Source: Massilia frigida (GTDB lineage Bacteria > Pseudomonadota > Gammaproteobacteria > Burkholderiales > Burkholderiaceae_D). From it: a DNA stretch of 64,000 nucleotides. The notes below the pieces were generated by a model. It saw nothing but the letters and a program-made list of their open reading frames with translations, was not told the DNA's origin and did no database searches. Shown in pieces: positions 13,807-31,061 of this stretch (positions within the stretch are counted from its first letter, which is position 1; every line of letters starts with the position of its first letter). The position numbers were made by a program, and so were the translations under genes. The DNA lies in the NCBI RefSeq assembly GCF_011682175.1, contig NZ_WHJG01000002.1, positions 273,244-337,243 on the forward strand, read 5' to 3'.

Positions 13807-14589
13807 TCAACTGCCGCCGAACCAGTTATACCCCTGGTTTTCCCAGTAGCCGCCAGGGTAGGTATTGGTCACGAAAATGGCCTGGATATGCTTCGGATTC
13901 TTGTAGCCGAGCTTGGTCGGCATGCGCAGCTTCATCGGAAAGCCGTAGCGCGGCGGCAAGGGCTGGTCGTCGTAGGTCAGCGCCATCAGGGTTTGCGGAT
14001 GCAGCGCCGTAGCCATGTCGATGCTCGTGAAATAATCGTCGGCGCATTGAAAGCCCACGTATTTGGCGCTCAGGTCGGCGCCCACATGGCGCAGGAAATG
14101 CCCGAACGACACCCCGCCCCATTTGCCGATCGCGCTCCAGCCTTCCACGCAGATATGGCGCGTGATCTGGTCCTGCTGCGGCAGCGCGCGCAGCCGGGCC
14201 AGGGTCCACGGCTTGCGGTCGGCCACCATGCCGCCCAGCTCCAGGCGCCAGGCCTCGCCATCGATCTCGCGCACCTCGTCCTCGCCATAAAAGGCATTGA
14301 AGGGAAACGGCCGCGTGATCATGCTGGCCGGATAAGTAGGCGCCAGACGCGCCGGATCGAACAGCAAGCCCTGGACCCGGTCGTTGAAGCGCGAGATGCC
14401 CGTCAGCGCCTGCTCGATGCTGTCCTGGTCGCTGGTGGAGCAGCCGGTTAGCAAGCTCAGGCCGCCCAGGGTCAGGCTGCGCTCCAGGAAGGCCCGGCGC
14501 GATGGCTGGGCGATGCGCTTGACGGCATCGGCCAGCATGGCGGCACCCTCGGCGGGAATGGCGATGTCGCGTGGTTTGAACAGTGTCAT
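13807..14589 (-). CDS. Molybdopterin methionine sulfoxide reductase, YedY1/MsrP-like
   Basis: A 260-residue sulfite-oxidase-fold molybdoenzyme. The export region SRRAFLERSLTLGGLSLLTGC carries a twin-arginine-like S-R-R-x-F-L motif and ends in a possible lipobox, so it may be anchored in the periplasm. The molybdenum-ligating cysteine is in RHICVEGWSAIGKWGG, and KLGYKNPKHIQAI is typical for the family. The gene lies between its putative cytochrome b partner (26 bases upstream) and the methionine-rich peptide that is its likely substrate. I chose ATG 14589 to place the Tat motif near residue 30. Confidence 0.88.
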   Translation of the reverse strand: MTLFKPRDIAIPAEGAAMLADAVKRIAQPSRRAFLERSLTLGGLSLLTGCSTSDQDSIEQALTGISRFNDRVQGLLFDPARLAPTYPASMITRPFPFNAFYGEDEVREIDGEAWRLELGGMVADRKPWTLARLRALPQQDQITRHICVEGWSAIGKWGGVSFGHFLRHVGADLSAKYVGFQCADDYFTSIDMATALHPQTLMALTYDDQPLPPRYGFPMKLRMPTKLGYKNPKHIQAIFVTNTYPGGYWENQGYNWFGGS

Positions 14590-14615
14590 GATGGAGTTTT
14601 CCTGAACGGTGATTG

Positions 14616-15212
14616 TTAGCGGCCGCGCAGCATGGCCAGCAGGGTGCGCGGCACCAGGGCCACCATCGCCACGTGCACGACGATGAAGGCGCACAGGCCG
14701 CCCATCGCAAAAAAATGCACCAGGCGCGCGCCTTCATAGCCACCCATCAGCACGCGCAGCAGGGGAAACTGCACCGATTTCCACAGCACCAGCCCGGACA
14801 GCACCAGCACGATGCTGTCGAGCATGACGAACAGGTAAGCCAGGCGCTGCACGCTGTTGTAGCGGCGCGGATCGGCATGGGCCAGCTTGCCTTTCAGCGC
14901 AGCGCCCATGTCGAGCAGCAACTGGCGTGGCGAAATCGGGAAGAACTGGCGCCGCAAGCGTCCCGACACCAGATTGAGCAGCAAATACAGGATGCCGTTG
15001 GCCAGCAGCAGCCACATCGCGGCGAAGTGCCATTGCAGTGCACCGCCCAGCCAGCCGCCCAGGGTGATTCCAGGGGGAATGGCAAAGCCGAGAAAGGCGG
15101 TCGCGTTGTAGATGCGCCAGCCGCTGGCGACCAGCAGCACCACGGCGAGCGCATTGAGCCAGTGGGTCAGGCGCAGCCAGAGCGGATGGATGGTGCGCGC
15201 ATCGCGCCTCAT
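14616..15212 (-). CDS. Cytochrome b561-type membrane partner (YedZ1-like)
   Basis: A 198-residue membrane cytochrome b. Heme-ligand-like histidines sit in LWLRLTHWLNALAVV, in ALQWHFAAMWLLL and in GARLVHFFAMGG / FIVVHVAMV, and four to five hydrophobic helices are visible. It is of the b561 type rather than the MsrQ type and would pass quinol electrons to the periplasmic reductase encoded just downstream. The ATG at 15212 (MRRDARTIHPLW) was preferred; an ATG 14 codons upstream is also in frame. Confidence 0.82.
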   Translation of the reverse strand: MRRDARTIHPLWLRLTHWLNALAVVLLVASGWRIYNATAFLGFAIPPGITLGGWLGGALQWHFAAMWLLLANGILYLLLNLVSGRLRRQFFPISPRQLLLDMGAALKGKLAHADPRRYNSVQRLAYLFVMLDSIVLVLSGLVLWKSVQFPLLRVLMGGYEGARLVHFFAMGGLCAFIVVHVAMVALVPRTLLAMLRGR

Positions 15213-15358
15213 CGCGCGCCCCCGGCGGCCGCACCCTTTTTGACTTGGCGGCAAGAAGCGGCATATGATGCCGGCGCGGCGCCGGACCTTGTCAATACGG
15301 TGAAGGTGGGAAACGGTTTCATGGACTTTGCCTGTTTATGAATGACACTGACAGGTAG

Positions 15359-15385
15359 TTCGCAACGCGCCCGGGATTGGTTACA
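15359..15385 (-). promoter_or_regulatory. Putative SigF-type ECF promoter for the hypochlorite-defence operon
   Basis: On the minus strand, TGTAACC (15379-15385) is followed after exactly 16 bases by CGAA (15359-15362). From memory this matches promoters of SigF/EcfF-type ECF factors (TGTAACC-N16-CGAA). It lies about 150 bases upstream of the cytochrome b gene in the intergenic region shared with the divergent sigF-nrsF pair. Confidence 0.65.
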
Positions 15386-15447
15386 GCCCAGGAAAAATAT
15401 GTCGCAAAATAATTTATATCGATCAAACGCTGTTACTAAAGGCCCCG

Positions 15448-16020
15448 ATGGAACGAATACCTGAGGTAAGCAGCTTGCGCAGCACGGAATTGCGCTTGCA
15501 CGCCCTGTTCTTGCAAGGACTCGACGGCGACGCCCAGGCCTACCGCGTCTTCTTGCAGGCGACGGCGTCGCATTTGCGGGCCTTCCTGCGGCGGCGCCTG
15601 AACCGCTGGCCGGACGAGGTCGAAGATCTGGTGCAGGAATCGCTGCTGGCGATCCATAACCAGCGCCTGAGTTACGATACCGGCGTGCCGCTGACGGCGT
15701 GGATGGTGGCGATTGCCCGCTACAAGCTGGTCGACTGGATGCGCCGCCATGCGCGCCGCGACGCCCTGACCGAGCCGCTGCCCGACGAAGACGCTTTCTT
15801 TTCCAGCGCCGACGCCGATGCCGGCGAGGCGCGGCGCGACCTGGGCAAGCTGCTGGCCACCCTGCCGGTCAAGCAGCGCGAGGCGATCGTCTACACCAAG
15901 CTCGACGGCCTGTCGGTGCGCGAAGCGGCCGACGCCCTGCAAATGACCGAAGCGGCGGTCAAGGTGTCCGTCCACCGCGGCTTGAAAACCCTGGCAACCC
16001 TTTTGAAGGATGCGCTATGA
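15448..16020 (+). CDS. sigF: ECF RNA polymerase sigma factor, SigF-like
   Basis: A 190-residue extracytoplasmic-function sigma factor. The region 2 helix contains EVEDLVQESLLAIHNQR and RYKLVDWMRRHARRD; region 4 contains LPVKQREAIVYTKLDGLSVREAADAL and the recognition helix TEAAVKVSVHRGLKTL. Its stop overlaps the start of an NrsF-type membrane anti-sigma factor (ATGA), and the divergent genes encode methionine-oxidation repair. In Azospira and Caulobacter such pairs respond to hypochlorite or heavy metals; the inducer here is inferred from context. Confidence 0.93.
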   Translation: MERIPEVSSLRSTELRLHALFLQGLDGDAQAYRVFLQATASHLRAFLRRRLNRWPDEVEDLVQESLLAIHNQRLSYDTGVPLTAWMVAIARYKLVDWMRRHARRDALTEPLPDEDAFFSSADADAGEARRDLGKLLATLPVKQREAIVYTKLDGLSVREAADALQMTEAAVKVSVHRGLKTLATLLKDAL

Positions 16021-16658: not shown

Positions 16659-16822
16659 TTTGCATTTTCCATGCCATGTCGCGAACTCGTGCGCAACAAA
16701 ATCAGTATTGAGCTAGATCAAAGTTTGTGCAGATAGGAGCACGTATAGTGATTTATATCGATCCGGGCTCAACGAACATTTGAGCCTTGTCAAACATTGT
16801 GCAACTTTCTTTGACCGGGAGA

Positions 16823-18196
16823 ATGACGCGCATGCTAGCCCGACTGGCCCTCCCACTCTGGATCCACGCGTTTGAACCGGTCAGTGCGGCAGTGCGCGCC
16901 AAGGTGGCGGCGGCGCTGGAACAGGCCGGGCTGGAGCCGCAAGCGGGCGGCGCCCTGACGGCCGGCTTCGGCCTGGTCTTGATCGATGGCGTCGATAGCG
17001 CCGTGCTGGAGCGGGTGCGGCCCCTGGCCGCCGGCGCCAGCGTGCTCGCCATCGCCGTGGGTGCGCGCGCGCCGGCCACGGCCGACATGTGGGCCCTGCT
17101 GGACGCCGGCGTCTTCGATGTGCTCAGCTGGACCGATGCCAGCGGCGACGCCGCCCAGGTGCGGGCCCGCCTGGAGCGGCGCGACGCCCTGCAGCGCCTG
17201 GCCGACTCGCCCGCCGTGAGCAATTGCCTGGTCGGGGTCAGCCCGGCCTGGCGCGCGCTGGTGCACAGCGTGGTCGAAGTGGCCGCCTTCACCGAGTCGC
17301 CGGTGCTCATCACTGGCGAAACCGGCACCGGCAAGGACCAGATTGCGCAACTGATCCACCGCCTCGGCGGGCGCGGCGAGCTTACCGTGCTCGACTGCAC
17401 CACCCTCACGCCCGAGCTGGCCGGCAGCGAGCTGTTCGGCCACGAGCGCGGCGCCTTTACCGGGGCCGCCAACGCGCGCGACGGCGCCTTCGCGCTGGCC
17501 GACGGCGGCGTGCTGTTCCTCGACGAAGTGGGCGAACTGCCGCTGCCGCTGCAAGCGCAATTGCTGCGCGTGCTGCAAGAACACACCTATAAACGGGTGG
17601 GCAGCAATACCTGGCAGCATTCGCACTTCCGGCTGGTGTGCGCCACCAACCGCAGCCTGGAAGAGGAGGTGGCCAATGGGCGCTTCCGGGCCGACCTGTA
17701 CCACCGCATCGCGGCCTGGCGCTGCCGCACCCCGCCCCTGCGCGAACGCAGCGACGACGTGCTGCCGCTGGCGCGCCATTTCCTGGCGCTGCTGGCCGGG
17801 CCGGGCGTGCCGTGCGAATTCGACGACGCCGTGCGCGAATTCCTGCTGCTGCGCCAATACCCCGGCAACGTGCGCGAGCTGCGCCAGACCGTCGCGCGCC
17901 TGTGGTACCGCCACAGCGGCCCGGGCCCGATCACCATCGGCGACCTCGCGCCCGACGAGCGGCCCGCGCGTGGCGGCATGGCGGCCTGCTGGCCCGATGT
18001 GCGCTTCGAGAGCGCGATCCGCGAGGCCATCGATTTGCGCATCGGCCTGGCGCGCATCAGCCAAGCCGCGGCCGACATCGCGATCCAGCTGGTGCTGGAA
18101 CAGGAAGGCGACAACAACCAGCGCGCCGCGCTGCGCCTGGGCGTGACCGACCGCGCGCTGCAAATCCGGCGCAAGGCGTGGGCCGATGCGCACTGA
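16823..18196 (+). CDS. Sigma-54-dependent activator with degenerate receiver-like domain
   Basis: A 457-residue bacterial enhancer-binding protein. The N-terminal 130 residues look like a receiver fold whose phosphorylation site is not conserved (GFGLVLIDGVDSAVLERV...; ALLDAGVFDVLSW). The AAA+ domain has Walker A GETGTGKDQ, the sigma-54-contact loop ELFGHERGAFTGA, Walker B GGVLFLDEVGELP and the GNVRELRQ segment. A Fis-type helix-turn-helix ends the protein (NNQRAALRLGVTDRALQIRR). A TTG 12 codons earlier is in frame but less likely. It is convergent with the eight-gene cluster, which has a sigma-54 promoter; I infer it controls that cluster. Confidence 0.9.
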   Translation: MTRMLARLALPLWIHAFEPVSAAVRAKVAAALEQAGLEPQAGGALTAGFGLVLIDGVDSAVLERVRPLAAGASVLAIAVGARAPATADMWALLDAGVFDVLSWTDASGDAAQVRARLERRDALQRLADSPAVSNCLVGVSPAWRALVHSVVEVAAFTESPVLITGETGTGKDQIAQLIHRLGGRGELTVLDCTTLTPELAGSELFGHERGAFTGAANARDGAFALADGGVLFLDEVGELPLPLQAQLLRVLQEHTYKRVGSNTWQHSHFRLVCATNRSLEEEVANGRFRADLYHRIAAWRCRTPPLRERSDDVLPLARHFLALLAGPGVPCEFDDAVREFLLLRQYPGNVRELRQTVARLWYRHSGPGPITIGDLAPDERPARGGMAACWPDVRFESAIREAIDLRIGLARISQAAADIAIQLVLEQEGDNNQRAALRLGVTDRALQIRRKAWADAH

Positions 18197-18209: not shown

Positions 18210-18935
18210 TCAATGCCCGATCAGGCGCAGCAGGTTTTGGCCCAGCACCAGCGCCTCGTCGTCCCGCGCCAGGCCCAGCATGCCGATCTTGGCCAGCTCC
18301 ACGCCCGGATGCAGCCACGGACCGTCGGAGCCGAACAGCAGCTTGTGCGCGCCGGCGCGCCGCACCGCCATCTCCAGCAGGTCGAAGCGGCGCACCCCGG
18401 CGCTGTCGGCGTAGATGTTGCGGTGGCGCGCCAGATGGTCGACCAGCGCCAGCTGCGCGCTCCAGTCGTCGGCAAAGCTGCCCAGGTGCGGCAGGATGAA
18501 GTTCACGTCGGGGAACTGGCTGGCCAGCAGTTCGGCCACCGCCACCTCGCCCGTCACGTCGTACAGCACCGGCAGGCGGAAGAAGCGCGCGGTCTCGCAC
18601 ACCTCGCGCGAAATGCGCGCGTCGTGCCGGTGCAGCTTGATGCCCACGAAGCCGTACTCCTCCACCGCCACCCGCACCATGGCGCGCACCCGCCCGCGGT
18701 CGCGCTGCGCATGCACGAAGGCGAAGCCGTAGAAGCGGCCCGGGTCGGCGGCCACGATGCGCGCCACGCTGCGGTTGGCCTGCGCATAGTCGGAGTGAAA
18801 CGCGGCCAAGAGCACCGTGCGCGCGATGCCGGCCTGGCGTGCCCGCGCCAGGTAGCGTTCGAGGCCGGCGTCGCTGTCCCACGGGCCGGAAAAGCCGTCG
18901 CCCTCGCCCGCATGGCAATGGCAGTCGATGATCAT
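18210..18935 (-). CDS. Amidohydrolase-2 family metal-dependent hydrolase
   Basis: A 241-residue TIM-barrel amidohydrolase. The metal-binding H-x-H is in IIDCHCHAG at the N-terminus; further family motifs are FVGIKLHRHDARIS, ILPHLGSFADDW and the late aspartate in LLFGSDGPWLHPG. The substrate is unknown. It is the last gene of the eight-gene cluster and its ATG overlaps the preceding stop by four bases (ATGA), which implies translational coupling to the glycine-rich protein upstream. Confidence 0.85.
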   Translation of the reverse strand: MIIDCHCHAGEGDGFSGPWDSDAGLERYLARARQAGIARTVLLAAFHSDYAQANRSVARIVAADPGRFYGFAFVHAQRDRGRVRAMVRVAVEEYGFVGIKLHRHDARISREVCETARFFRLPVLYDVTGEVAVAELLASQFPDVNFILPHLGSFADDWSAQLALVDHLARHRNIYADSAGVRRFDLLEMAVRRAGAHKLLFGSDGPWLHPGVELAKIGMLGLARDDEALVLGQNLLRLIGH

Positions 18936-19582
18936 AGATCGAGCACGATGCGGCGGCCGCCCTGGCGCCGCCATGTGCCGCTGCTGCCGCCACCGCTGCT
19001 TCTGCCCCGGAGGGCAGGCGAGGACTCGCGCAGTTGCGGCATGTGGCAGCGCAGCGCCGCATCGAGCGCCTGGCGCGCGGCGCGCTGCGGATCGGCACCC
19101 TGCCCCGCCAAGCCGGCCTGCTGCGCCGCCGTGCCGGCGATGCGCACGAAGCGGCGCGCCATTTCCAGCTCGCGCTCTTCGCCTTCCAGGCCGACCGTTT
19201 CCATCTCCAGCGCCTTGGCCAGGGCGCCGCCAAGCGCGCCGCCGATGGCCGTGCCCACGCCAGGAATCGGAATGAAGGACCCGAGCGCGCTGCCCACGAA
19301 CGGCAGCGCGGTCTTGGCCAGGCCCTTGAGCATGCCGCCGAGCGGCTTGGCGACCTTGCCGATGAAGGAGCCGACCTTTTTGACGCCCTTCCAGATCCCC
19401 TTGAACATATTGCCGAGGAACTGTTCGAGTTCTTCCTCGCTGGCGACCGACATCAGTTCCATCGCCAGCGCGATTTCTTCCTGCTCCCCGAAGGGACCGG
19501 GCACTTCGAATTCGAGCATTTCCAGTTCGCCCATCTCGGCCTGCTGGCGGCATTTGGCACAAGCACATCCTGACCCTTGCAT
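18932..19582 (-). CDS. Glycine-rich cluster protein, paralogue 1
   Basis: A 216-residue protein of no family I can name. In order: a C-x-C-x-x-C start (GCACAKC), an acidic/aromatic stretch (ELEMLEFE), a helical segment ALAMELMSVASEEELEQFLG, a hydrophobic Gly-rich core (ALPFVGSALGSFIPIPG, then GTAIGGALGGALAKALE) that could enter a membrane, the motif ARRFVRIAG, a low-complexity SGGGSSG linker and the C-terminal motif W-R-R-Q-G...I-V-L. The same order occurs in the proteins at 24829-25548 and, without the Gly core, at 25607-26218. No signal peptide is seen. Confidence 0.75.
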   Translation of the reverse strand: MQGSGCACAKCRQQAEMGELEMLEFEVPGPFGEQEEIALAMELMSVASEEELEQFLGNMFKGIWKGVKKVGSFIGKVAKPLGGMLKGLAKTALPFVGSALGSFIPIPGVGTAIGGALGGALAKALEMETVGLEGEERELEMARRFVRIAGTAAQQAGLAGQGADPQRAARQALDAALRCHMPQLRESSPALRGRSSGGGSSGTWRRQGGRRIVLDL

Positions 19583-19618
19583 GATATTCTCCTTCAGTTG
19601 ATGAAGCGTTGGCGAACG

Positions 19619-20266
19619 TTAGCGCCAGGATTCGCCGAACAGCTCGGCCTCCAGCTCGGTGCGCGTGTTGGTCAGCGTCGGGTTTTTCGTGGCGTTCGGT
19701 CCCGACTTGACACCCATATTCTTGTGCAGATCCTTTTCCACGGCGCGGCGCTGGTCGTCCGTCAGGGCGGTTTTGGCGACGAAGACCGTATGCTTGGCCA
19801 CGTCCAGTCCCAGCATGGTGGCGCACAGGAGATGCTGCTGGAGCCGGCGCTTCACGCTATCGCTCTGGCCGCTGTAGGCGCGCTTGCCTGTCGGACCATC
19901 GAACTCGATCAGGTAGAGGCCCGCCACATTGGCGTCCGGCGAGCGCACCGCATCGCGCAGCGAGCCAATGCGTTTGTACTGTGGCGCGCCGCCCCCCATC
20001 TTGTCGAGTGCCGGTTTGATGGTCTTGGGTGTTTCATCCTGCGGCTCGTCGGCGTCGGCGTCGGGCGCAGGGCCGTACCCATACGGTTCCGGCCAGGGAG
20101 CCAGCACCGGGTAACGCCAGCCGCCCCACGCCGGCCCGCGTGGCGCTGGCGGCCTGGCCGGCCAGGTGCGCCCCATCGGGGGCCGTGGCGCGCGCGCCGG
20201 CGCCCCACGGCGCGCGCCGCGCTCTTGTTCCATCCCGAATTCCAGCATTTCAAATTCCGTATTCAT
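19619..20266 (-). CDS. GIY-YIG-type protein with Pro-rich N-terminus
   Basis: A 215-residue protein. Residues 1-14 repeat the acidic/aromatic stretch of its neighbour (TEFEMLEFGMEQE); residues 15-75 are Pro/Arg/Gly-rich and probably unstructured. The C-terminal half looks like a GIY-YIG nuclease domain: AGLYLIEFDG then AYSGQSDSVKRRLQQHL, with R in the expected helix and a possible metal-binding Glu in VEKDLHKNMG. Nuclease activity is therefore plausible but the canonical GIY and YIG triads are altered to GLY and YSG. The start overlaps the upstream PLP enzyme gene by 17 bases. Confidence 0.7.
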   Translation of the reverse strand: MNTEFEMLEFGMEQERGARRGAPARAPRPPMGRTWPARPPAPRGPAWGGWRYPVLAPWPEPYGYGPAPDADADEPQDETPKTIKPALDKMGGGAPQYKRIGSLRDAVRSPDANVAGLYLIEFDGPTGKRAYSGQSDSVKRRLQQHLLCATMLGLDVAKHTVFVAKTALTDDQRRAVEKDLHKNMGVKSGPNATKNPTLTNTRTELEAELFGESWR

Positions 20267-21323
20267 ACTCCCTCCTTGTGTGTTCGACTGAACCTGTCTG
20301 CGCGCGCAGGCAGGCCGCCAGCAGCGCCAGTGCGCGTTCGATGTCGCCCGGCGCATGGCGCGCCGTGACGATGAAACTGAGCGTGGCCTGCGTGCCCGCC
20401 CGCTGCAGAACCGCATCGACGCCGGCGCTGCGCAGGCAGGCGTGCAGCGCCACGCCGTCGGTGCGGCTATCGAGCGCCAGCGTCTGCACCGGAAAGGCGC
20501 TGGCGCGCAATGCGATGCCGTGCCTGGCCGCGCCGGCGCGCCACTGCGCCACGCGGCACCACAAACGCCGCCGCAACTGGTCGCCGTGGACGCGGTTGAT
20601 GCGCAGCGCCGCCAGCGCGGCCCGGATCGAGGCCACCGATGGCGGGCTGGAATGCACGCGCGCCTGGCTCGATTGGCCGAAGCGCCGCACCAGGTCCGCG
20701 CTGGCGCACAGCACCGCCAGCGGCGCGCCGAAGGCCTTCGACAGCGAACTGCCGACCACCACGTGCGGCCCGTTGACGCCGTGCCGGCGCAGCGAACCGC
20801 CACCGCCGCTGCCAAACAGTCCGATGACCTGGGTGTCGTCCAGCACCAGCCAGCCGCCCGCCTCGCGCGCCAGCGCCGCGTATGCGGCCAGCGGCGGCGC
20901 CTGGGCCGCGCCGGGCGAGTAGCCGTCGGCCAGGATCAGCGGACGCCTGCCCTGGCGCCGCGCCGCGGCGGCCAGTTGCCTCAGCGCGCCCAGGTCGGCA
21001 TGGGCGAACACCGTGAGCGGCGTGCCCCTGGCCGCCGCGCGTTCGGCCCCGGCCCGCGCAATCGGGTAGCTGGCGCCGTCGACCAGGATCGCCACCCGGG
21101 CCTGCGCCATCAGCTCGAACAGATCGCAGAACAGGTGCAGGGTCGATGGCAGCAGGGTCGCCGCCTCGCAGCCGCACAGCAGCGCCAGCGCGGCCGCCAG
21201 CTGCGCCGCGCCCGGCGGCTCGCTGCTGGCCGCCGGCCGTCCCAGGGTCAGCGCATCCCACTCGCCCAGCGCCGTGCTGGGATGGCGCAGGCCCAGGTAC
21301 AGGGCGTTGGCGAAGTCCAGCAT
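20250..21323 (-). CDS. PLP-dependent alpha-oxoamine-synthase-like enzyme
   Basis: A 357-residue fold-type I PLP enzyme resembling 8-amino-7-oxononanoate synthase. The cofactor aspartate is in WLVLDDTQVIGLFG, and the Schiff-base lysine is in VVGSSLSKAFGAPLAVLC. It is somewhat shorter than BioF (about 385). No biotin genes are nearby, so a role in condensing an amino acid with an acyl donor is possible but unproven. It lies 13 bases after the large cluster protein and is cotranscribed with it. Confidence 0.78.
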   Translation of the reverse strand: MLDFANALYLGLRHPSTALGEWDALTLGRPAASSEPPGAAQLAAALALLCGCEAATLLPSTLHLFCDLFELMAQARVAILVDGASYPIARAGAERAAARGTPLTVFAHADLGALRQLAAAARRQGRRPLILADGYSPGAAQAPPLAAYAALAREAGGWLVLDDTQVIGLFGSGGGGSLRRHGVNGPHVVVGSSLSKAFGAPLAVLCASADLVRRFGQSSQARVHSSPPSVASIRAALAALRINRVHGDQLRRRLWCRVAQWRAGAARHGIALRASAFPVQTLALDSRTDGVALHACLRSAGVDAVLQRAGTQATLSFIVTARHAPGDIERALALLAACLRAQTGSVEHTRREYEYGI

Positions 21324-21336
21324 GCCGCGCGCTTGC

Positions 21337-23493
21337 TCACGCCATCCGCGCCTGCTGGTCCAGGCGCTGGCGCAGCAGGATCGAGGGCAAGGTGCCTTCC
21401 GCCTTGGGATCGCGCGCGTCGACCGTCAGGTCGACCCCGGTGGCGGCGCGGTAGGCGTGGATGTAGCCCTGGATCTGCGGACGCCAGAAGCGCGCCCAGT
21501 TGAAGGCCTGGGTCGGTTCGTAGATATCGCTCCAGGCGCCGTAGCGCACCGACAGCAGCACCTGTTCGCCGAACATGGCCAGGCTGCGGAAGTGCATCAC
21601 GCTGGTGTCCGACCATCCCTGCAGCTTCTTCATGGCGTCCACCCGGTCCATCCACGGTTCCGGATAGGCGACCATGATGCGGGTCGGGAGAAACTCGCGG
21701 AACTCGGGCCGCGCCAGCATCCACTGCTGCATCAGCATTTCGATGCGCGCCGTCGACGGCAGGTCGCCGAACTGGTTGTGCGCGCCCTGCGACAGGATCA
21801 GGTGCACTTCCTTGAGGCCGTTCAAGACCGGGAAGGCGTCGGCCTTGACGGTGGTGTCGTCGTCCTGGCGGTAGAAGGAGGTGCACAGGCGCAGCAGGTA
21901 GTGGAAGGCTTCCAGGAATTTCGAGCGCGTGTCGGCCGGGCGGAAATGCTGGACCGCCTTGCCGTCGAGCCGCACGCCGTAATGATGGTCGTACTCGTAA
22001 TTGCGGCGGACCACGGTGAGGCGATGTTGTTCGTCCTGCGTGTACCCCCAGATCAGGTTATTCAGTGGGCGCAGGGGATCGATTTCAAGGTTCGCCAGCG
22101 GGTCGGCGCGGCCCAGCGCGCGCACGTTCTGGAAGCGCTGGGTGATCGCATTCATGGTCTGCACCAGCATCCCCTCTTCGTGCCAGTAAGACCAGATCAG
22201 CTCCAGCAGGCACGGGTTGGCCAGTTTTTGCTGGACGATGCCGAAGCACATATCGGCCTCGCCCTCCTGCCCGCGCAGGAGGTGGATCGGCACGTCGGGC
22301 AGCTTGCGCCGGATGATCGCCAGGTAAGGCAGCACCTTGGTGCCGTCGACCGTCTCTTCGAGGTAGTCGGTATTGAAAGTCCGTTCCAGGTCGCGCGTGG
22401 CGGGAATGTCGCGCCGGTCCAGGTAAGCCTGGTCCTCGACCGGATTGAAATGCGTCGGCTGGCTGAGCACCCCGCAGTTGACCATCACGAACGCCTCGGT
22501 GGCGACCTTGAGCACGCGGTAGGCTTCCGAATCGTTGAAGGGCAGCGCGCGGCGCTGGCGCAGCTGCTCGAACAGCGCGCTCTTGGCCTCGAAACCGGGG
22601 CCGCGGTTGCCGGGGGTGCAGAACAGCGCATCCATGAAGTTCAGGTAGTTCGTAAACGACATCGCGTCGGTGCTGTTGCGGATCAGGGTCCACAGCGGCA
22701 GGTCGTCGGTCGGCTCGGTCTCGGTGCGCGTCATCGACACGCCGATGTTGCCCGAGATCGGGCTTGGGGTGCGTTCGTCGGCGACAAAACCCTGGCGGAT
22801 GCCGATCAGGGCCGGCGGCGCCAGCGCCAGGTCCATTTCCGCTGCCGGTACGGCCACCGCACCGGCAGCGGCGACTGCGGCGACCGCCCCGGGAGCGTGC
22901 ATAGCGAGGGAGCGCCGCGCCAACCCCAGCACCGCCTCGAACTGCTGCGGGCCGGCGTAGTTCACCACGCGCGAGAATTCGTACGGGTCTTTCTCGCTCA
23001 CGTTCCACCCGGACGAGGACACCACCCGCACGTACGGCTTGAGAGCCTTGTTTTCATTGTTGCTGAAGCAGATCTTCGCCACCGCCCGGTCCGACACGCG
23101 CGCCGCGTTGCAAGGGGTGAAATGGCAGTCGACCGCCTCGAATCTGAGTTCGGCCTTCAGCTCCAGCGCCAGCTGGAAGCAGACCACGGCGCGGCAGCCG
23201 CCATCGACCTGCACCAGGCGCGGCGCGACCACCGGGTGGTGTTCGTACGCCACCACGTAGCTGCCTGGCGCCAGGTTGGCGACCGTGACCGCGCCGGCGC
23301 TGCCGGTGACGGCAAGCGCCTCCAGCTGGGGCGGCGACGTCGGCCAGTTGGACGCATCGAAACCTTTTTCGCCGGGCGTAAATCGGTAAATGCCGACCGT
23401 CGCATTCGACACCGGCGCGCCGCTCTGGGCCTCGTGCACGGTCACCTCGAGCGACCCCGCGCGGGCTTCCTTCACATTGTTCTTGCTGCTCAT
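21337..23493 (-). CDS. Large cluster protein with N-terminal carboxypeptidase-regulatory-like fold
   Basis: A 718-residue protein. Residues about 13-110 look like an Ig-fold carboxypeptidase regulatory or prealbumin-like domain (SLEVTVHEAQSGAPVSNATV; LAPGSYVVAYEHHPVV). The remaining 600 residues are not recognised. They are rich in aromatic and acidic residues, with features such as LLELIWSYWHEEGMLVQTM and YEYDHHYGVRLDGKAVQHF. No signal peptide is visible. As the largest product of the cluster, just downstream of the metallopeptidase, it could be a structural or scaffold component; that is speculation. Confidence 0.7.
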   Translation of the reverse strand: MSSKNNVKEARAGSLEVTVHEAQSGAPVSNATVGIYRFTPGEKGFDASNWPTSPPQLEALAVTGSAGAVTVANLAPGSYVVAYEHHPVVAPRLVQVDGGCRAVVCFQLALELKAELRFEAVDCHFTPCNAARVSDRAVAKICFSNNENKALKPYVRVVSSSGWNVSEKDPYEFSRVVNYAGPQQFEAVLGLARRSLAMHAPGAVAAVAAAGAVAVPAAEMDLALAPPALIGIRQGFVADERTPSPISGNIGVSMTRTETEPTDDLPLWTLIRNSTDAMSFTNYLNFMDALFCTPGNRGPGFEAKSALFEQLRQRRALPFNDSEAYRVLKVATEAFVMVNCGVLSQPTHFNPVEDQAYLDRRDIPATRDLERTFNTDYLEETVDGTKVLPYLAIIRRKLPDVPIHLLRGQEGEADMCFGIVQQKLANPCLLELIWSYWHEEGMLVQTMNAITQRFQNVRALGRADPLANLEIDPLRPLNNLIWGYTQDEQHRLTVVRRNYEYDHHYGVRLDGKAVQHFRPADTRSKFLEAFHYLLRLCTSFYRQDDDTTVKADAFPVLNGLKEVHLILSQGAHNQFGDLPSTARIEMLMQQWMLARPEFREFLPTRIMVAYPEPWMDRVDAMKKLQGWSDTSVMHFRSLAMFGEQVLLSVRYGAWSDIYEPTQAFNWARFWRPQIQGYIHAYRAATGVDLTVDARDPKAEGTLPSILLRQRLDQQARMA

Positions 23494-23503
23494 GTCAATC
23501 TCC

Positions 23504-24823
23504 TTAGTGGAAAGTCAAAGGTGCCCGGGGAAGCGCCGGCGCTCGCGCGTCCAGCGAGGCGCACAGGAAGCTGGTATCGAGTGTGCTGCGCAGCGCCCAG
23601 TGCGTCAGCAGTTTGGCCAGCAGGACGTTTTCGTCCTCCGGCCCGACCAGGCCATCGGCGCGCGCCTGGCCCAGCACCGCGAACACCAGCGACGGCGGGG
23701 CGCGGTACATCTGCGCGGGCGCGCCCTCCCAGCGCCGGTACAGGGCCGAGAGCGCGGCCGGCTGGCGCCGCGCCACATCGAGCACCTCGGGCAGGGTCTT
23801 GCCGCGCAGCGCGGCCGGCCGGTGCCGCACCAGGAGCGCGACAAAGTCGCGCATGCCGCGCCGCAGCCGTCCCAACAGGTCGACCGTTTCCGGCGCCAGG
23901 GTGGCGCTCGGGTAGTAGTCGTGCCACACATTGGCCAGGCGCTCCCACTGCGGATGCGGATACAGGGCCTGCCCCATCGCGCAACTGAGCATCACGCGGA
24001 TCCACGGGATCGGATGGGGATCGTCGGGACTGAGGCGAAACACGAACACGCGCGGCAGGCTGACCACCCCGATCAGGCCCAGGGTCGAGACCACGCCGAC
24101 CCGCGCCACCGACCAGAAATCGGCCACGATCTCGGAAATCCAGCGTTCCCACCACTGCCATACCTCGCGCTGGGCCGGGTCGCTTTGCTGCATCGCCTGC
24201 AGTTCGGGGCGCAGCGAATTGACCAGGTCGAGCAGGGCCGCGCCCTGGTGTCCGACCTCGTGGATCAGCGACGAGGCGATGCCGCTGCCGATCATGCGTT
24301 CGCGCGGCACCCGCACCACCGCCACCGGGTTCTCGCCGCCGCCCGGCAGGCGGGTGCGCGCGCGCCGGATCGCCGCGCCCGGCCCGCGGTCGAGATAACA
24401 GACCACCGGCGGCAGGCGGTAATAGTCGCCCGGCAGGGTCAGGGCGTCGGCCGCGACCGCGTCCAGGCCGGACAGCCAGACCCCGTTTTCGTGCTCGCTG
24501 CGCTGGGTGATGACATCGTTGAACAGGTCGAACTGGGTCAGCGTGGCATTGAACTTGAGGCGCAAGAAGGTGAAGCGGCGCTGCGCCTCGGACGCGCTGG
24601 CGGTGTCGCGCGCGCCGGCCAGCCAGTGCTGGAAGGCCGCGACCAGCGCCTGCAGCTCGCGCCGCCCCGTGACCAGATAGCGCTCGAGCGCCGCCTGGGC
24701 CGACGGCAGCAGCGCGGCCGCCGGAACCATGGGCTCGATCAGGGCAAAGGGGCGGACCCGCGCCAGCCTGGTTTGCAGGGAGCGCGCTTCCTGTTCGAGC
24801 AGCGACGAGGCATACGGGCTCAT
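23504..24823 (-). CDS. Putative zinc metallopeptidase (HEVGH) of the cluster
   Basis: A 439-residue protein with a zincin-type motif at about residue 205: SSLIHEVGHQGAALLDLV, followed some 40 residues later by WISEIVADFWSVARVG, whose glutamate could be the third ligand (gluzincin pattern H-E-x-x-H...E). Nothing else matches a family I know. There is no signal peptide. It starts six codons' width or less from its neighbours (10 bases to the large protein, 5 bases from paralogue 2), so it is firmly within the operon. Confidence 0.72.
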   Translation of the reverse strand: MSPYASSLLEQEARSLQTRLARVRPFALIEPMVPAAALLPSAQAALERYLVTGRRELQALVAAFQHWLAGARDTASASEAQRRFTFLRLKFNATLTQFDLFNDVITQRSEHENGVWLSGLDAVAADALTLPGDYYRLPPVVCYLDRGPGAAIRRARTRLPGGGENPVAVVRVPRERMIGSGIASSLIHEVGHQGAALLDLVNSLRPELQAMQQSDPAQREVWQWWERWISEIVADFWSVARVGVVSTLGLIGVVSLPRVFVFRLSPDDPHPIPWIRVMLSCAMGQALYPHPQWERLANVWHDYYPSATLAPETVDLLGRLRRGMRDFVALLVRHRPAALRGKTLPEVLDVARRQPAALSALYRRWEGAPAQMYRAPPSLVFAVLGQARADGLVGPEDENVLLAKLLTHWALRSTLDTSFLCASLDARAPALPRAPLTFH

Positions 24824-24828
24824 GACAG

Positions 24829-25548
24829 TCAGGCGCCGTAGAGGACGATCTTGTTGCCCTGACGGCTCCAGCGGCCGCTGGCGCCACGTCCGCCGCCGCT
24901 GCCCATGCCGCCACCGGAGGACATGCTGGCGCCGCCCAGTCCCGCACCAGCGCCGCCACAGCTCCCGCAGCCGCCGCCGGCCGCGCCGCGTCCGAGCAAA
25001 CCTGGCGCATGCTGGCGCGCGGCGGCCGTTGCCGCATTCTGGGCGATGGAGCGCGGGTCGCCCGAGGCCGGCGCCTGCGATGCTTTCTGCACCGTGTCGG
25101 CGGCCAGGCGCACGAACTGGCGGGCGCCTTCGAACTCGCGGTCTTCGCCGCTCATTTCCCCTTCCAGCCCGAGCGCGCCGCCGGCGGCCGAGGCCAGGCC
25201 GCTGCCGATCTTGGCGCCCAGCGGGCCGCCGAAATAGCCGCCGATGGCGCCACCGGCGAGCGGCAGGGCTTTCTTGGCCACGCCTTTGAGCACGCCGCCG
25301 ACGGCCTGCCCGATCGGCGAGCGGATCACGCGGCCGGCCGTGGCGCCGACCTTGCGAATGAAGTCGCCCAGGAAGCGGTCAAGCTCCGCTTCGTTGTTCA
25401 CGTTGAGCAGCTCTTGTGCGAATTCGGCTTCCTGCTGTTCGTTCAAGCCCGATTCGCCGCTCCACTCTCCCTGGCCGAATTCGAACTGTTCGCCCTCGTA
25501 GCTGGTTTCCTGGCCATATTCCATTGTCGTGCGGTCGATGTCATGCAT
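24829..25548 (-). CDS. Glycine-rich cluster protein, paralogue 2
   Basis: A 239-residue protein. The acidic/aromatic N-terminus (TMEYGQETSYEGEQFEFGQ) is followed by FAQELLNVNNEAELDRFLG, a basic helix (IRKVGATAGRVIRSPIG), a glycine-zipper-like hydrophobic core (ALPLAGGAIGGYFGGPLG), the motif ARQFVRLAA, RQHAPGLLGRG, a very Gly-rich linker with C-G-S-C, and W-S-R-Q-G-N-K-I-V-L. Its motif order matches paralogues 1 and 3. The ATG at 25548 is preceded by GGGAG. Function unknown; the core suggests membrane interaction. Confidence 0.75.
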   Translation of the reverse strand: MHDIDRTTMEYGQETSYEGEQFEFGQGEWSGESGLNEQQEAEFAQELLNVNNEAELDRFLGDFIRKVGATAGRVIRSPIGQAVGGVLKGVAKKALPLAGGAIGGYFGGPLGAKIGSGLASAAGGALGLEGEMSGEDREFEGARQFVRLAADTVQKASQAPASGDPRSIAQNAATAAARQHAPGLLGRGAAGGGCGSCGGAGAGLGGASMSSGGGMGSGGGRGASGRWSRQGNKIVLYGA

Positions 25549-25606
25549 GATGCGCTCCCAAAGAAGAGTGAAACAACAAAATGCCCGGATGGACGATCCG
25601 TCCGGA

Positions 25607-26218
25607 TCAGCAATCGTGAACAATCAGCTGGCCCGCCTGGCGGGTCCAGCGTCCGTGCGTGGCCGGCGGCAGCGCGATGCGCGGCAGCAGGCCAGGTGCG
25701 TGTTGACGCGCGGCGGCTTGCACGGCGGCGCGCGCGTTCTGCGGCGATGGATGACCACCCTCGCCGGCCTTGCCGGCGTGGCGCGCGGCTTCGTCGGCAA
25801 GGCGTACCAGCTGGCGCGCCAGGATGAATTCCTTGTCCTCGGGGCTGAGGCCTTCGAGTTCGAGGCCGAGCATGCGTGCACCGAGGTTGATGCGCACGCT
25901 CTTGCCGTGCGCGCTTGCCAGGCCGGGGCGCAGCGGCGTCAGGATCGGCTGCAAGGCGCGCACAAGTTCGGCGACCAGCAGCGGTCCCATTGGCGAACGC
26001 GCCACGCGCGCACCGAGCACGCCGGCGCCGGCGATGGCGCGGCCCAGCACGCGCCGCAGGTCGGCCGGCTGGTCCGCTTCGAGCAGTTCGGCGGCCAGCG
26101 CCAGGTCGGCGCTGTCGTCGGAGAGCGGGCCGGCCTCGGATTCCTGCGCCTCGGCGCGCGGCGTGGCGTTGGTGAAGATGTCGAAGACCGGACTGTATTC
26201 AAGCAGGCGACGGTTCAC
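25607..26218 (-). CDS. Cluster protein, paralogue 3 (first gene of the operon)
   Basis: A 203-residue protein starting with GTG (VNRRLLEYSPVFDIF), preceded by AGAGAGG at good spacing; there is no suitable ATG in frame. It keeps the paralogue layout: LALAAELLEADQPADLRRVLG, ARSPMGPLLVAELV, ARQLVRLAD, RQHAPGLLPR and W-T-R-Q-G-x-L-I-V. The glycine-rich hydrophobic core and Gly linker of paralogues 1 and 2 are missing, replaced by a Pro-containing segment (LQPILTPLRPGLASAHG). It is the first gene after the sigma-54 promoter. Function unknown. Confidence 0.74.
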   Translation of the reverse strand: MNRRLLEYSPVFDIFTNATPRAEAQESEAGPLSDDSADLALAAELLEADQPADLRRVLGRAIAGAGVLGARVARSPMGPLLVAELVRALQPILTPLRPGLASAHGKSVRINLGARMLGLELEGLSPEDKEFILARQLVRLADEAARHAGKAGEGGHPSPQNARAAVQAAARQHAPGLLPRIALPPATHGRWTRQAGQLIVHDC

Positions 26219-26292: not shown

Positions 26293-26308
26293 TGCAAGGG
26301 CTGTGCCA
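26293..26308 (-). promoter_or_regulatory. Consensus sigma-54 (-24/-12) promoter
   Basis: The minus strand reads TGGCAC-AGCCC-TTGCA, a perfect match to the RpoN consensus TGGCAC-N5-TTGC. The predicted start of transcription is near 26282, 64 bases upstream of the GTG of the first cluster gene. Confidence 0.9.
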
Positions 26309-26350: not shown

Positions 26351-26406
26351 CGAAATGCGTTTCGTACAAGCCGCCGTTAGGGGCCGGCGTGGCGAAAAGC
26401 GTTTCG
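26351..26406. promoter_or_regulatory. Two palindromic enhancer-like sites
   Basis: CGAAATGCGTTTCG (26351-26364) and CGAAAAGCGTTTCG (26393-26406) share the arms CGAAA-N4-TTTCG and differ at one base. Their centres are 42 bp apart (four helical turns) and lie about 75 and 117 bases upstream of the predicted sigma-54 start site, the normal place for enhancer-binding-protein sites. Confidence 0.75.
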
Positions 26407-27828: not shown

Positions 27829-29946
27829 TTACTGAGCAGCCGCTTCCGCGCCTTCAGCAGCTTTCATCGACAGCTTGAGGCGGCCGCGGTCGTCGGTTTC
27901 GAGAACCTTGACGCGCACTTGCTGGCCTTCTTTCAGGTAGTCGGCAACCGCGTTCACACGCTCGTTGGCGATCTGCGAGATGTGCAGCAGGCCATCCTTG
28001 CCTGGCATGACCTGGACGATCGCGCCGAAGTCGAGCAGCTTGAGCACGACGCCGTCGTAGGTCTTGCCCACTTCGACCGAGGCGGTCAGTTCTTCGATGC
28101 GACGCTTGGCTTCCTGGCCGGCGGCGGCGTCCACCGACGCGATGGTGACGATACCTTCATCGCTGATGTCGATCTGGGTGCCGGTTTCTTCGGTCAGCGC
28201 GCGAATGACTGCACCGCCCTTGCCGATGACGTCACGGATTTTCTCAGGATTGATCTTGATGGTGATCAGGCGCGGTGCGAAATCCGACAGTTCGGTTTTC
28301 ACGTGCGGCATGGCCTTCTGCATTTCGCCGAGGATGTGCTGGCGGCCTTCTTTGGCTTGCGCCAGTGCCACTTGCATGATTTCCTTGGTGATGCCCATGA
28401 TCTTGATGTCCATCTGCAGCGCGGTAATGCCATTGGCGGTACCGGCTACCTTGAAGTCCATGTCGCCCAGGTGATCTTCGTCGCCCAGAATGTCGGACAG
28501 GACGGCGAACTTGCCGCCTTCCTTGATCAGGCCCATGGCGATACCGGCCACGTGCGCTTTCATCGGCACGCCCGCATCCATCAGCGCCAGGCAGCCGCCG
28601 CAGACGGAAGCCATCGACGAGGAACCGTTCGATTCGGTGATTTCCGATACCAGGCGCACCGAGTAGCTGAAGTCTTCCGGGTTGGGCAAGGCGGCGATCA
28701 GCGCGCGCTTGGCCAGGCGGCCGTGGCCGATTTCGCGGCGCTTTGGCGTACCGACACGGCCGGTTTCGCCGGTGGCGAACGGAGGCATGTTGTAGTGCAT
28801 CATGAAGTCATCGGTGTACTCGCCCATCAGCGCATCGATCTTCTGGCTGTCGCGCGCGGTGCCGAGGGTGGCCACGACCAGCGCTTGCGTTTCGCCGCGG
28901 GTGAACAGGGCCGAACCGTGGGTGCGTGGCAGGATGCTGGTGCGGATCGCGATCGGACGCACGGTGCGGGTGTCGCGGCCGTCGATGCGTGGCTCGCCGT
29001 TGAGGATCTGCGAACGCACGACCTTGGCTTCGATGTCGAACAGGACGTTGCCGACGTCGACATTGTCGGGCTGAGGTATGCCGGTGGCGGCAGCGTCAGC
29101 GGCCAGGGCGGCGTAGACTTCCTGGAACGAGGCTTTCAGCTTGGCGGTACGGGCAACCTTGTCCTTGATCTGGTAGGTGTCGTTGATGTTCGTTTCAGCC
29201 AGTTCCTTGACGCGGGCGATCAGCGCTTCGTTCTTGGCCGGGGCGGTCCATTCCACTTCCGGCTTGCCGCCGTCGCGCACCAATTCGTGGATCGCATCGA
29301 TCACGACTTTCATCTGGTCATGGCCGTAGACGACGGCGCCGAGCATGATTTCTTCGGACAGTTGCTTGGCTTCCGATTCGACCATCAGCACGGCCGTTTC
29401 GGTACCGGCGACGACCAGGTCCATCTCGGATGTTTTCAGTTGTGTCGTGGTCGGGTTCAGGATGAACTGGCCGTTGGCGTAGCCGACGCGCGCGGCGCCG
29501 ATCGGGCCGCTGAACGGGATGCCGGAGACGCACAGGGCAGCCGAAGCGCCGATCATGGCGGCGATGTCCGGATCGATCTCAGGATTAACCGACAGCACGT
29601 GGATGATGATCTGAACTTCGTTCAGGTAGCCTTCCGGGAACAGCGGGCGGATCGGACGGTCGATCAGGCGGCTGGTCAGGGTTTCTTTTTCGGAAGGACG
29701 GCCTTCGCGCTTGAAGAAACCGCCTGGGATTTTACCGGCTGCGTACGTTTTCTCGACGTAGTCGACCGTCAGCGGGAAGAAATCCTGGCCTGGCTTGGCG
29801 TCTTTGCGCGCAACCACGGTAGCCAGGACGACGGTGTCTTCGATCGACACCATGACGGCGCCGGAGGCTTGACGGGCGATTTCGCCGGTTTCCAGGGTAA
29901 CTTGGTGTTGGCCGTACTGGAAGGTTTTCGTAACTTTATTAAACAT
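27829..29946 (-). CDS. pnp: Polyribonucleotide nucleotidyltransferase
   Basis: PNPase, the phosphorolytic 3'-5' exoribonuclease of the RNA degradosome (705 residues). The two RNase PH-like domains are present ([18 protein letters not shown] at the start; [19 protein letters not shown] in the second), followed by a KH domain ([20 protein letters not shown]) and an S1 domain ([20 protein letters not shown]). The ATG at 29946 gives the standard N-terminus [12 protein letters not shown]; the longer frame has no support. It follows rpsO, the usual arrangement that permits joint transcription. Confidence 0.98.
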
Positions 29947-30052
29947 GGGTAATCCCTTTCTATTTGCCGACAGATTTTCAGGCGCTGTCGTCCACCTCAC
30001 CACAGGCAACATTGCTTGTTGCCTTTACTACTTTTTCGGGACTAGAAATGCA

Positions 30053-30083
30053 AAATGCCCGCAACAGCAAGCTGTGCAGGCAT
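30053..30083 (-). terminator. Terminator/hairpin between rpsO and pnp
   Basis: On the minus strand AAATGCCTGCACAGC pairs, with one bulge, with GCTGTTGCGGGCATTT, followed by TTGC. It lies just after rpsO, where an rpsO terminator is known in other bacteria; partial readthrough to pnp is typical. Confidence 0.78.
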
Positions 30084-30110
30084 TTCTTGATCAACTTGAA
30101 TCGGCAAAAA

Positions 30111-30380
30111 TTACTTGCGCAGGCCGAGTTTAGCGATCAGATCGCGATAACGGGTTGCGTCTTTGCTTTTCAGGTAGGACAGCAGGCTCTTACGACGGTT
30201 GACCATCATGATCAGACCACGGCGCGAGTGGTGATCTTTAGCGTGAGCTTTGAAGTGGCCGTTCAGTTCGTTGATGCGTGCGGTCAGCAGAGCGACCTGA
30301 ACTTCAGGGGAGCCGGTGTCGTTTTGCGCACGGGCGTTGTCCGCGATGATCGCGGCTTTGTTGATGTTTTCTACGGTCAT
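30111..30380 (-). CDS. rpsO: 30S ribosomal protein S15
   Basis: S15, 89 residues, a primary binder of the 16S rRNA central domain. The sequence has the family signatures [17 protein letters not shown] and [20 protein letters not shown] and ends [12 protein letters not shown]. The ATG at 30380 gives the standard length; the upstream extension is not expected. Located immediately upstream of pnp. Confidence 0.98.
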
Positions 30381-30557
30381 GATGATACCTTTCACATGCG
30401 GTGCACGAGTCGCAACCCGACACACCGTGAACTTCGATTGATGAACCGGCCAAAACGGCCAGACCCGCAAGTATATGCGAAAACCCGGCGTGCTGCCAGT
30501 GATGCTTGCCTGCGACTGGTGCATGATGGCGTTTTGGTCCTTTCCATGGTGGTTTTT

Positions 30558-31061
30558 ATGCAAAAACTAGTCAAAGTAACAATCCTGAGCGCGCTGCTGG
30601 CCTTGGGCGGCTGCGCCGCGATGATGCGCACCCCGCCGCTGCCGGGCGACACGCTGGAGGTGGTGCGCGCCAAGTTCGGCGAGCCGACCGCGGTGCATCC
30701 GCTGCCAGCGGGCCAGGTGCTGGAATATGCGACCGGGCCGTTCGGCCAGTTCACCTGGATGGCGCGCATGGGGCCGGATGGCAAGTTGATCGCGTTGGAG
30801 CAGGTGCTGGGCGATGTGGGGTTCGGGCGCATCAAGATCGACAAGGCGAGCAAGGCCGATGTGATGGCGACCGTGGGCCGCCCGGCCGAGCGCTCCTACC
30901 TTTCGCTGTCGGACCTGGAAGTGTGGTCGTACCGCTATAAGGAGAGCGGCGTATGGAATTCGATGATGCACGTGCATTTCGACCGCAGCGGCATCGTCAG
31001 GAAGATGATCAGCGGGCCAGACCCGATGTACGAAGAGAGGCGCGGGTTTTTCAGGGATTGA
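30558..31061 (+). CDS. BamE/SmpA-like small lipoprotein
   Basis: A 167-residue lipoprotein: signal peptide with lipobox in [14 protein letters not shown], then a domain with two SmpA/OmlA-like repeats ([16 protein letters not shown] and [19 protein letters not shown]), each followed by a W/Y-rich strand ([20 protein letters not shown]). It is not the canonical BamE (which is shorter); its role at the outer membrane is inferred only from the fold. The ATG at 30558 was chosen as it gives the signal peptide. Confidence 0.8.

Follow-up and report, generated by a model that had tools for sequence, protein, structure and literature searches.

What do the eight genes at positions 18210-26218 of the Massilia frigida stretch analysed here (64,000 nucleotides of contig NZ_WHJG01000002.1, hereafter the window) produce together? 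Translation of the open reading frames (ORFs) of the window places all eight co-directionally on the minus strand, with intergenic gaps of -17 to +58 bp, two pairs overlapping and the others nearly abutting. In the order of transcription they are T1 (g1), T2 (g2), g3, g4, g5, g6, T3 (g7) and g8, the letter T denoting three paralogues. An earlier reading made from the letters alone (the sequence-only reading) had listed eight co-directional, overlapping or near-abutting genes for three paralogues, a large protein with an Ig-like N-terminus, an HEVGH protein, an oxoamine-synthase-like pyridoxal phosphate (PLP) enzyme, a GIY-YIG protein and an amidohydrolase, and had taken them for an undescribed system. 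This list is borne out by the analyses described below, and the eight genes are part of a real, recurring system with a fixed gene order. Together they may encode an inducible lytic-effector system, in which the T proteins would act on membranes and tagged cargo proteins would cut cell walls, proteins or nucleic acid, a reading that is plausible if somewhat short of probable.

The gene order was followed in 80 loci from GTDB genomes, fetched through homologues of g4, with neighbours counted only where the contig was long enough. The g3 gene lies beside g4 in 73/74 loci and a T gene upstream in 69/70; g5 is present in 70 of 73 testable loci (absent from three), g8 in 57/63 and a convergent gene for a sigma-54 activator, or bacterial enhancer-binding protein (bEBP), in 61/63 testable loci. 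A search starting from g3, which is single-copy in the window's genome, gave hits in 39 of the family's 294 genomes, including that of the window. In all 30 loci taken from this search (the window's own included) g4 adjoins g3, and T was also seen in 27, the remaining three being shorter than 3 kb. The sequence-only reading had named independent occurrence of the genes as evidence against a system, and no such case was seen in these 30 loci. An Ensifer megaplasmid carries T, g3, g4, g5, T, g8 and the activator, and the same plan is kept on a Rhizobium megaplasmid, where g8 was not called, and on a Paraburkholderia megaplasmid, where g5 was not called. Three divergent proteobacterial relatives keep the order T, g3, g4, g8 and activator, with no g5 called and with the promoter-associated dyads described below at looser spacing. 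The g3, g4 and T products score above no family cut-off in Pfam, NCBIfam or PADLOC, and no description of the cluster was found in the open-access literature, which omits most subscription journals. Given these results and the fixed-order recurrence, the claim of an undescribed system holds.

In a midpoint-rooted tree of the C-terminal part of g4 (68 rows, after thinning of Janthinobacterium and removal of short rows), the rows are labelled Pseudomonadota, Nitrospirota, Acidobacteriota, Planctomycetota and Bacteroidota, and four of the six Nitrospirota rows fall inside a large, otherwise proteobacterial group. Single phylum labels may be wrong, as the titles of the ten non-proteobacterial rows mark every one of them as a metagenome bin. 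The distribution is patchy, covering about 1% of the genomes of the phylum (5/398 listed, G294 only by a weak N-terminal match), and within the same genus the system is present in seven listed relatives and absent from ten. Among the carriers identified by name are ammonia oxidisers, Nitrospira, methanotrophs, Massilia and Janthinobacterium. In the protein database g4 has up to 3,223 relatives, some of which may match the CnaB part only, and T has 965.

The eight genes are predicted to form one sigma-54-dependent operon. The activator gene (16787-18196, plus strand; start codon uncertain, the first TTG being listed) is convergent with the operon and ends thirteen bases past the end of g8 on the opposite strand. 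Its product matches Pfam Sigma54_activat (E 7e-55); the AAA+ domain and GAFTGA motif are present in 23/23 aligned sequences, HTH_8 (a Fis-type helix-turn-helix) was matched in 12 of these 23 at E 0.01, and no receiver domain was recognised in the N-terminus of any of them. At the other end of the operon, promoter scoring locates a sigma-54 promoter, TGGCACAGCCCTTGCA, at 26293-26308 (minus strand), beyond which lie a promoter-proximal enhancer-like dyad CGAA-N6-TTCG (26351-26364) and, 42 bp from it, a promoter-distal copy (26393-26406). These elements were counted in 65 (promoter) and 63 (dyads) regions, window included, with an upstream T gene and enough sequence. Promoter sites scoring at least 10 occur in 57/65 regions, against about 5 predicted from other stretches of the same loci, and sites scoring at least 11 in 43/65, against about 1. 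The score rule had been loosened once after the first scan, allowing C or T at the sixth base; under the original rule, 65/68 regions scored at least 9, against 18 expected from shuffles.

The two dyads are exactly 42 bp apart in 52/63 regions and 41 bp apart in five more, and the pair occurs in 1/1353 control stretches, the pattern having been derived from the window and part of the loci in which it was later counted. In the window the pattern matches once, and in 100 shuffles never. Of 36 carrier genomes, 33 contain the pair, 30 of them exactly once and three twice, and three have none; one of the two sites in G427 (locus L153) lies inside an ORF with no system gene near. In genome G407 (locus L072), two pairs lie about 1.1 kb apart on the operon's contig, unlike in most carriers. 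Among 399 genomes of the order, 14 contain a match, against 1 for a reversed-pattern control; one of the 14 is the window's own, the match in G246 sits at the operon and in G328 the operon is on a different contig from the match. The pattern is therefore not perfectly specific. Of the three megaplasmids, only the Rhizobium one was found to carry the pair. The most direct reading is that of a dedicated activator with a single target operon, its binding to the dyads being predicted. The parts list of the sequence-only reading, right as to the eight products, lacked this convergent regulator, its presumed binding sites and the sigma-54 promoter, as well as the exchangeable cargo slot described below.

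The T genes, all on the minus strand, code for T1 (25607-26218; 203 amino acids, GTG start), the most divergent paralogue, the glycine-zipper paralogue T2 (24829-25548; 239 amino acids) and T3 (18932-19582; 216 amino acids), a cationic glycine-zipper protein with an acidic stretch and an N-terminal CxCxxC. They are joined by BLASTP matches between g7 and g2 (40% identity, E 9e-23) and between g2 and g1 (32% identity, E 3e-10), and a search with a T profile, built with the window's own three proteins included, found no fourth copy in the window's genome. An anchor motif, which itself holds acidic residues, is present in 87/100 T proteins; in these 87 the mean charge is -12.4 over the 45 residues to the anchor end and +7.8 over the following 45, with values of -11/+6 for T2 and -13/+8 for T3 of the window. 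T proteins average 10.7 GxxxG motifs each, against 0.7-1.9 per 220 amino acids in g3-g5, and a Sec-like hydrophobic start was found in 7/143 by a hydropathy test (not SignalP). T domains are also contained in larger slot proteins: in L066 and L067 a T domain lies between a peptidoglycan-binding domain and an amidase, and in L050, L054, L060, L063, L065 and L069 it lies behind a peptidoglycan-binding domain. This composition is the pattern of a putatively membrane-active, cationic amphipathic segment behind an acidic stretch. As the strongly acidic stretch precedes the cationic glycine-zipper segment, the acidic part probably keeps T inactive until it is cut off, for which g3 would be the simplest candidate. 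The sequence-only reading had offered a membrane-active product processed by the peptidase as one idea; it fits the paralogue sequences and stays conjectural. Its second idea, a small-molecule pathway, is a conceivable alternative.

The slot between g5 and g8 holds different proteins from locus to locus. Pfam matches among 91 slot proteins comprise PG_binding_1 (28), Amidase_2 (11), Trypsin_2 (8), M20 (8), GIY-YIG (5), OmpA (3) and VanY (2), with single proteins carrying muramidase, papain-like, Beta-lactamase2, Extensin-like and PT-VENN domains. The 91 were scanned out of 107 slot ORFs, leaving out ten judged artefacts by eye, the ORFs of L085 and L087, and four that were fragments or T proteins; part of the slot and flank ORFs were called mechanically and may not represent real genes. 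The slot families are absent among the 19 families matched at least twice in 77 flanking ORFs (of 90 drawn; single-match families were shown in part). In the window, the slot is filled by g6 (19619-20266, minus strand; 215 amino acids), composed of an FEMLEF tag, a proline/arginine-rich linker and a GIY-YIG domain. On its own, g6 has a weak, sub-cut-off Pfam match to GIY-YIG (E 0.044); among the 91 slot proteins, however, five reach E 1e-3 or better with this family (best 5e-5), and Y118, Y131, R140, H145, E177 and N200 of g6, presumably the catalytic residues of GIY-YIG enzymes, are conserved in at least 90% of 24 GIY-YIG relatives. A T gene follows the GIY-YIG gene in many mapped loci, and in the window g7 begins 36 bp after g6. 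The L058 protein combines wall-binding, amidase and GIY-YIG domains in a single chain, which links the nuclease-like cargo found in the window with attack on the wall. In the Janthinobacterium locus L023, a papain-family protein (13912-14925) occupies the usual T3 position.

The slot contents and the fold of g4 could also be read as surface or envelope remodelling, in which g4, OmpA or peptidoglycan-binding cargo and T would build or anchor a surface layer and the hydrolases would make room for it. The CnaB-like domain of g4 suits this explanation, as do the PG_binding_1 and OmpA domains in 28 and 3 of the 91 slot proteins, respectively. Nuclease, trypsin and papain cargo would be out of place in a surface layer, tagged cargo has no Sec-like start and the composition of T is better matched by membrane attack, and this explanation is regarded as improbable.

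The FEMLEF of g6 (residues 5-10; 20237-20254, minus strand) is a variant of an FExxPF tag found in other loci, and its F5, E6 and F10 are conserved in at least 90% of the 24 GIY-YIG relatives. With L001 and L082 excluded from the counts, the strict tag occurs in 32/107 slot ORFs and 0/738 flanking ORFs, and in 30 of the 32 tagged slot proteins it lies among the first 25 residues of the ORF as called. It was found in 3/31 mid-operon and 0/101 upstream T proteins, and in the core in 0/79 g3, 1/84 g4, 0/70 g5, 0/62 g8 and 0/53 activators. The relaxed form is present in 56/107 slot ORFs, 18/31 mid-operon T, 20/101 upstream T and 9/738 flanking ORFs, and in one each of g4, g8 and the activator. None of 35 tagged cargo proteins has a Sec-like hydrophobic start in the hydropathy test. 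A search for tagged cargo elsewhere in genomes located exact FExxPFE at 29 places in 12/16 genomes, seven of them near the N-terminus of operon slot ORFs and the others inside ORFs, in short ORFs or without a start, and the idea was set aside. In the Nitrospira bin of L074/L155, which has no recognisable g5, several slot proteins occur in a row, three of them with FEAEPF tags (one VanY, one trypsin-like and one unassigned).

The conserved core consists of g3, g4, g5 and g8, all on the minus strand. The g3 product (23504-24823; 439 amino acids) is a putative zinc peptidase containing the HEVGH motif; H188, E189 and H192 of this motif and the downstream E231, a presumed ligand, are invariant in 30 aligned sequences, an HExxH...E arrangement of the gluzincin type. 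Its structure model (predicted local distance difference test, pLDDT, 83) had no Foldseek match at E 0.001 or below, and the VIA-align rows are mostly helical bundles. The g4 product (21337-23493; 718 amino acids) has an N-terminal CnaB/transthyretin-like fold, corresponding to the Ig-like N-terminus of the sequence-only reading, followed by a conserved, mostly helical domain of about 470 amino acids, and contains many invariant His, Glu and Trp residues. Several g4 relatives (P0002, P0003 and others) are entered in public records as '8-amino-7-oxononanoate synthase', a name that would be expected of the following gene, g5; this is probably a propagated annotation error. The g5 product (20250-21323; 357 amino acids) is Aminotran_1_2/BioF-like in Pfam and NCBIfam, the best NCBIfam match being bioF (E 1e-22, far below the cut-off). 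Like the alpha-oxoamine synthases, it keeps the overall family features and the PLP lysine (K196), present in 51/51 sequences (50 of 79 g5 hits plus the window). It differs from them at the DxxH motif, the His of which we take to be catalytic in that family: Gln165 occupies this position, and DDTQ is found in all 51 sequences. The amidohydrolase g8 (18210-18935; 241 amino acids) matches Amidohydro_2 (Pfam E 3e-17), with H6, H8, H102, H150 and D204 conserved in at least 97% of 44 sequences.

Such a core would also suit a protein-sized pathway resembling those for ribosomally synthesised and post-translationally modified peptides (RiPPs), in which the acidic part and the tag would serve as leaders, g4, g5 and g8 would modify T and cargo, and g3 would cut the leader, T being the product and the cargo accessory. 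The similar N-terminal motif on T3-type proteins and cargo is consistent with this, as are the invariant His, Glu and Trp residues of g4 and the conservation of a PLP enzyme and an amidohydrolase with the cluster. Set against it, T and cargo, at about 180-800 amino acids, far exceed known precursor peptides in length, no RiPP recognition or modification family was matched among the window products in Pfam or NCBIfam, and g5 is missing from 3/73 testable loci and from the calls in the three divergent relatives. A pathway of this kind is considered unlikely.

In the lytic-effector reading, binding of the activator to the two dyads, spaced by 42 bp, would trigger the sigma-54 promoter, the sites and the gene being observed, and T would be released from its acidic part as described above. 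The tag (FExxPF, or FEMLEF here) probably marks the cargo for the core, with g4 as the likeliest partner, and the core would mature the products. T, alone or, elsewhere, fused between wall-binding and catalytic domains, would bring the catalytic parts into or through a bacterial envelope, most likely the envelope of neighbouring cells, and g5 and g8, which keep their cofactor and metal residues, may make or modify some component of the product. The gene set, the switch sequences, the tag, the cargo domains and the composition of T are observed in the sequences, from which we infer every protein interaction, processing step, export and target in this scheme. A bolder version, possible yet doubtful, is that FExxPF marks full-size hydrolases, proteases and nucleases as interchangeable cargo for the core, which T would carry through membranes under one sigma-54 switch, by a delivery route unrelated to the numbered secretion systems and shared by several phyla.

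Several observations weigh against the lytic-effector reading. The operon has no exporter and, with gaps of at most 58 bp, no room for a cargo-specific immunity gene. A simple weapon would have no natural use for g5 and g8, and g5 was missing from the calls in some relatives. Only 1/87 T proteins passes the classical transmembrane threshold, and the window's T1 has no anchor motif and carries a weak charge (-6/+2 by position). The strict tag occurs only in a minority of slot ORFs and in none of ten M20-type slot ORFs, g6 of the window shows FEMLEF in its place, and the relaxed tag is also found in 9/79 g3. On the megaplasmids of Ensifer and Paraburkholderia no dyad pair was found.

Nucleases or wall hydrolases directed against neighbouring cells ordinarily call for an immunity gene, and the lack of room for one is the strongest argument against a classical weapon and favours regulated self-lysis or release. 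Here T would form holin-like pores from inside and the tagged enzymes would dismantle the producer or a subpopulation, or release proteins in the manner of type 10 secretion. Neither an exporter nor an immunity gene would then be needed, and the lack of signal peptides by hydropathy, the holin-plus-hydrolase logic of amidase, muramidase and VanY in the slot, and tight sigma-54 control through a dedicated activator would all be accommodated; dismantling of a cell also suits nuclease and protease cargo. On the other hand, the slot of the window holds a GIY-YIG protein and not a wall hydrolase, the T proteins are unlike integral membrane proteins, the enzyme core exceeds the needs of a lysis cassette and a spanin-like gene was not noticed, though not searched for. 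Self-lysis or release is, on this evidence, rated as somewhat unlikely.

The lytic-effector reading can be compared with three known types of system. The Cdz glycine-zipper bacteriocins of Caulobacter (PMC5380434) are proteins of 84-86 amino acids with type I secretion and immunity. They resemble the present system in having small sets of glycine-zipper proteins as the presumed membrane-active part and in a contact or lysis logic, and differ in that the T proteins are larger (203-239 amino acids), the window locus lacks type I secretion genes and room for an immunity gene, and a peptidase/PLP/amidohydrolase core is joined by exchangeable enzyme cargo. No transporter family was matched by the eight products in Pfam, and no transporter cluster common to the mapped loci was seen, where flanking clusters were not individually identified. 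Type 10 secretion (the subject of, for example, PMC10847048, PMC10109510 and PMC9527704), which like polymorphic toxin systems has its logic and not its parts in common with the present system, likewise combines a membrane-active protein with wall hydrolases and cargo without signal peptides; here no holin is recognised, the hydrolases are optional and many are tagged, and the core is unrelated. No integral-membrane holin was found, the window products matching no holin family in Pfam or PHROGs, and a peptidoglycan hydrolase is present in the loci of some relatives and was not found by Pfam in the operon of the window. Polymorphic toxin systems (the subject of PMC3482391) share a conserved N-terminal part with exchangeable GIY-YIG, protease and wall-hydrolase domains. 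As in those systems, one tag is shared by cargo with different domains; in contrast to them, the gene after g6 in the window codes for a T protein and not for immunity, no known trafficking module is present and the carrier-like T is a separate protein in the window.

Phage and defence origins were also considered and rejected. No g4 relative was found in 50,697 phage records, none of 32 pattern hits in IMG/VR was confirmed and PHROGs gave only three weak matches to g7, two of them to tape-measure proteins. For known anti-phage defence, PADLOC returned nothing beyond weak matches between g6 and PDC-S14 (best E 1e-4). Outside the operon and its regulator, translations read by eye revealed, within 13807-16020, ORFs resembling an MsrP/MsrQ-type pair followed by an extracytoplasmic function (ECF)-sigma-like ORF (15448-16020), and, beyond the promoter end of the operon (27829-30563), a long polynucleotide phosphorylase (PNPase)-like ORF and a short rpsO-like ORF.

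The dyad pair helps to find the operon in raw sequence. If the lytic-effector reading is true, many proteins currently annotated as hypothetical, or misnamed, would be united in a single system whose switch, tag and cargo slot could be tested together, and the tag would give access to what may be a new means of moving folded enzymes into or out of cells.

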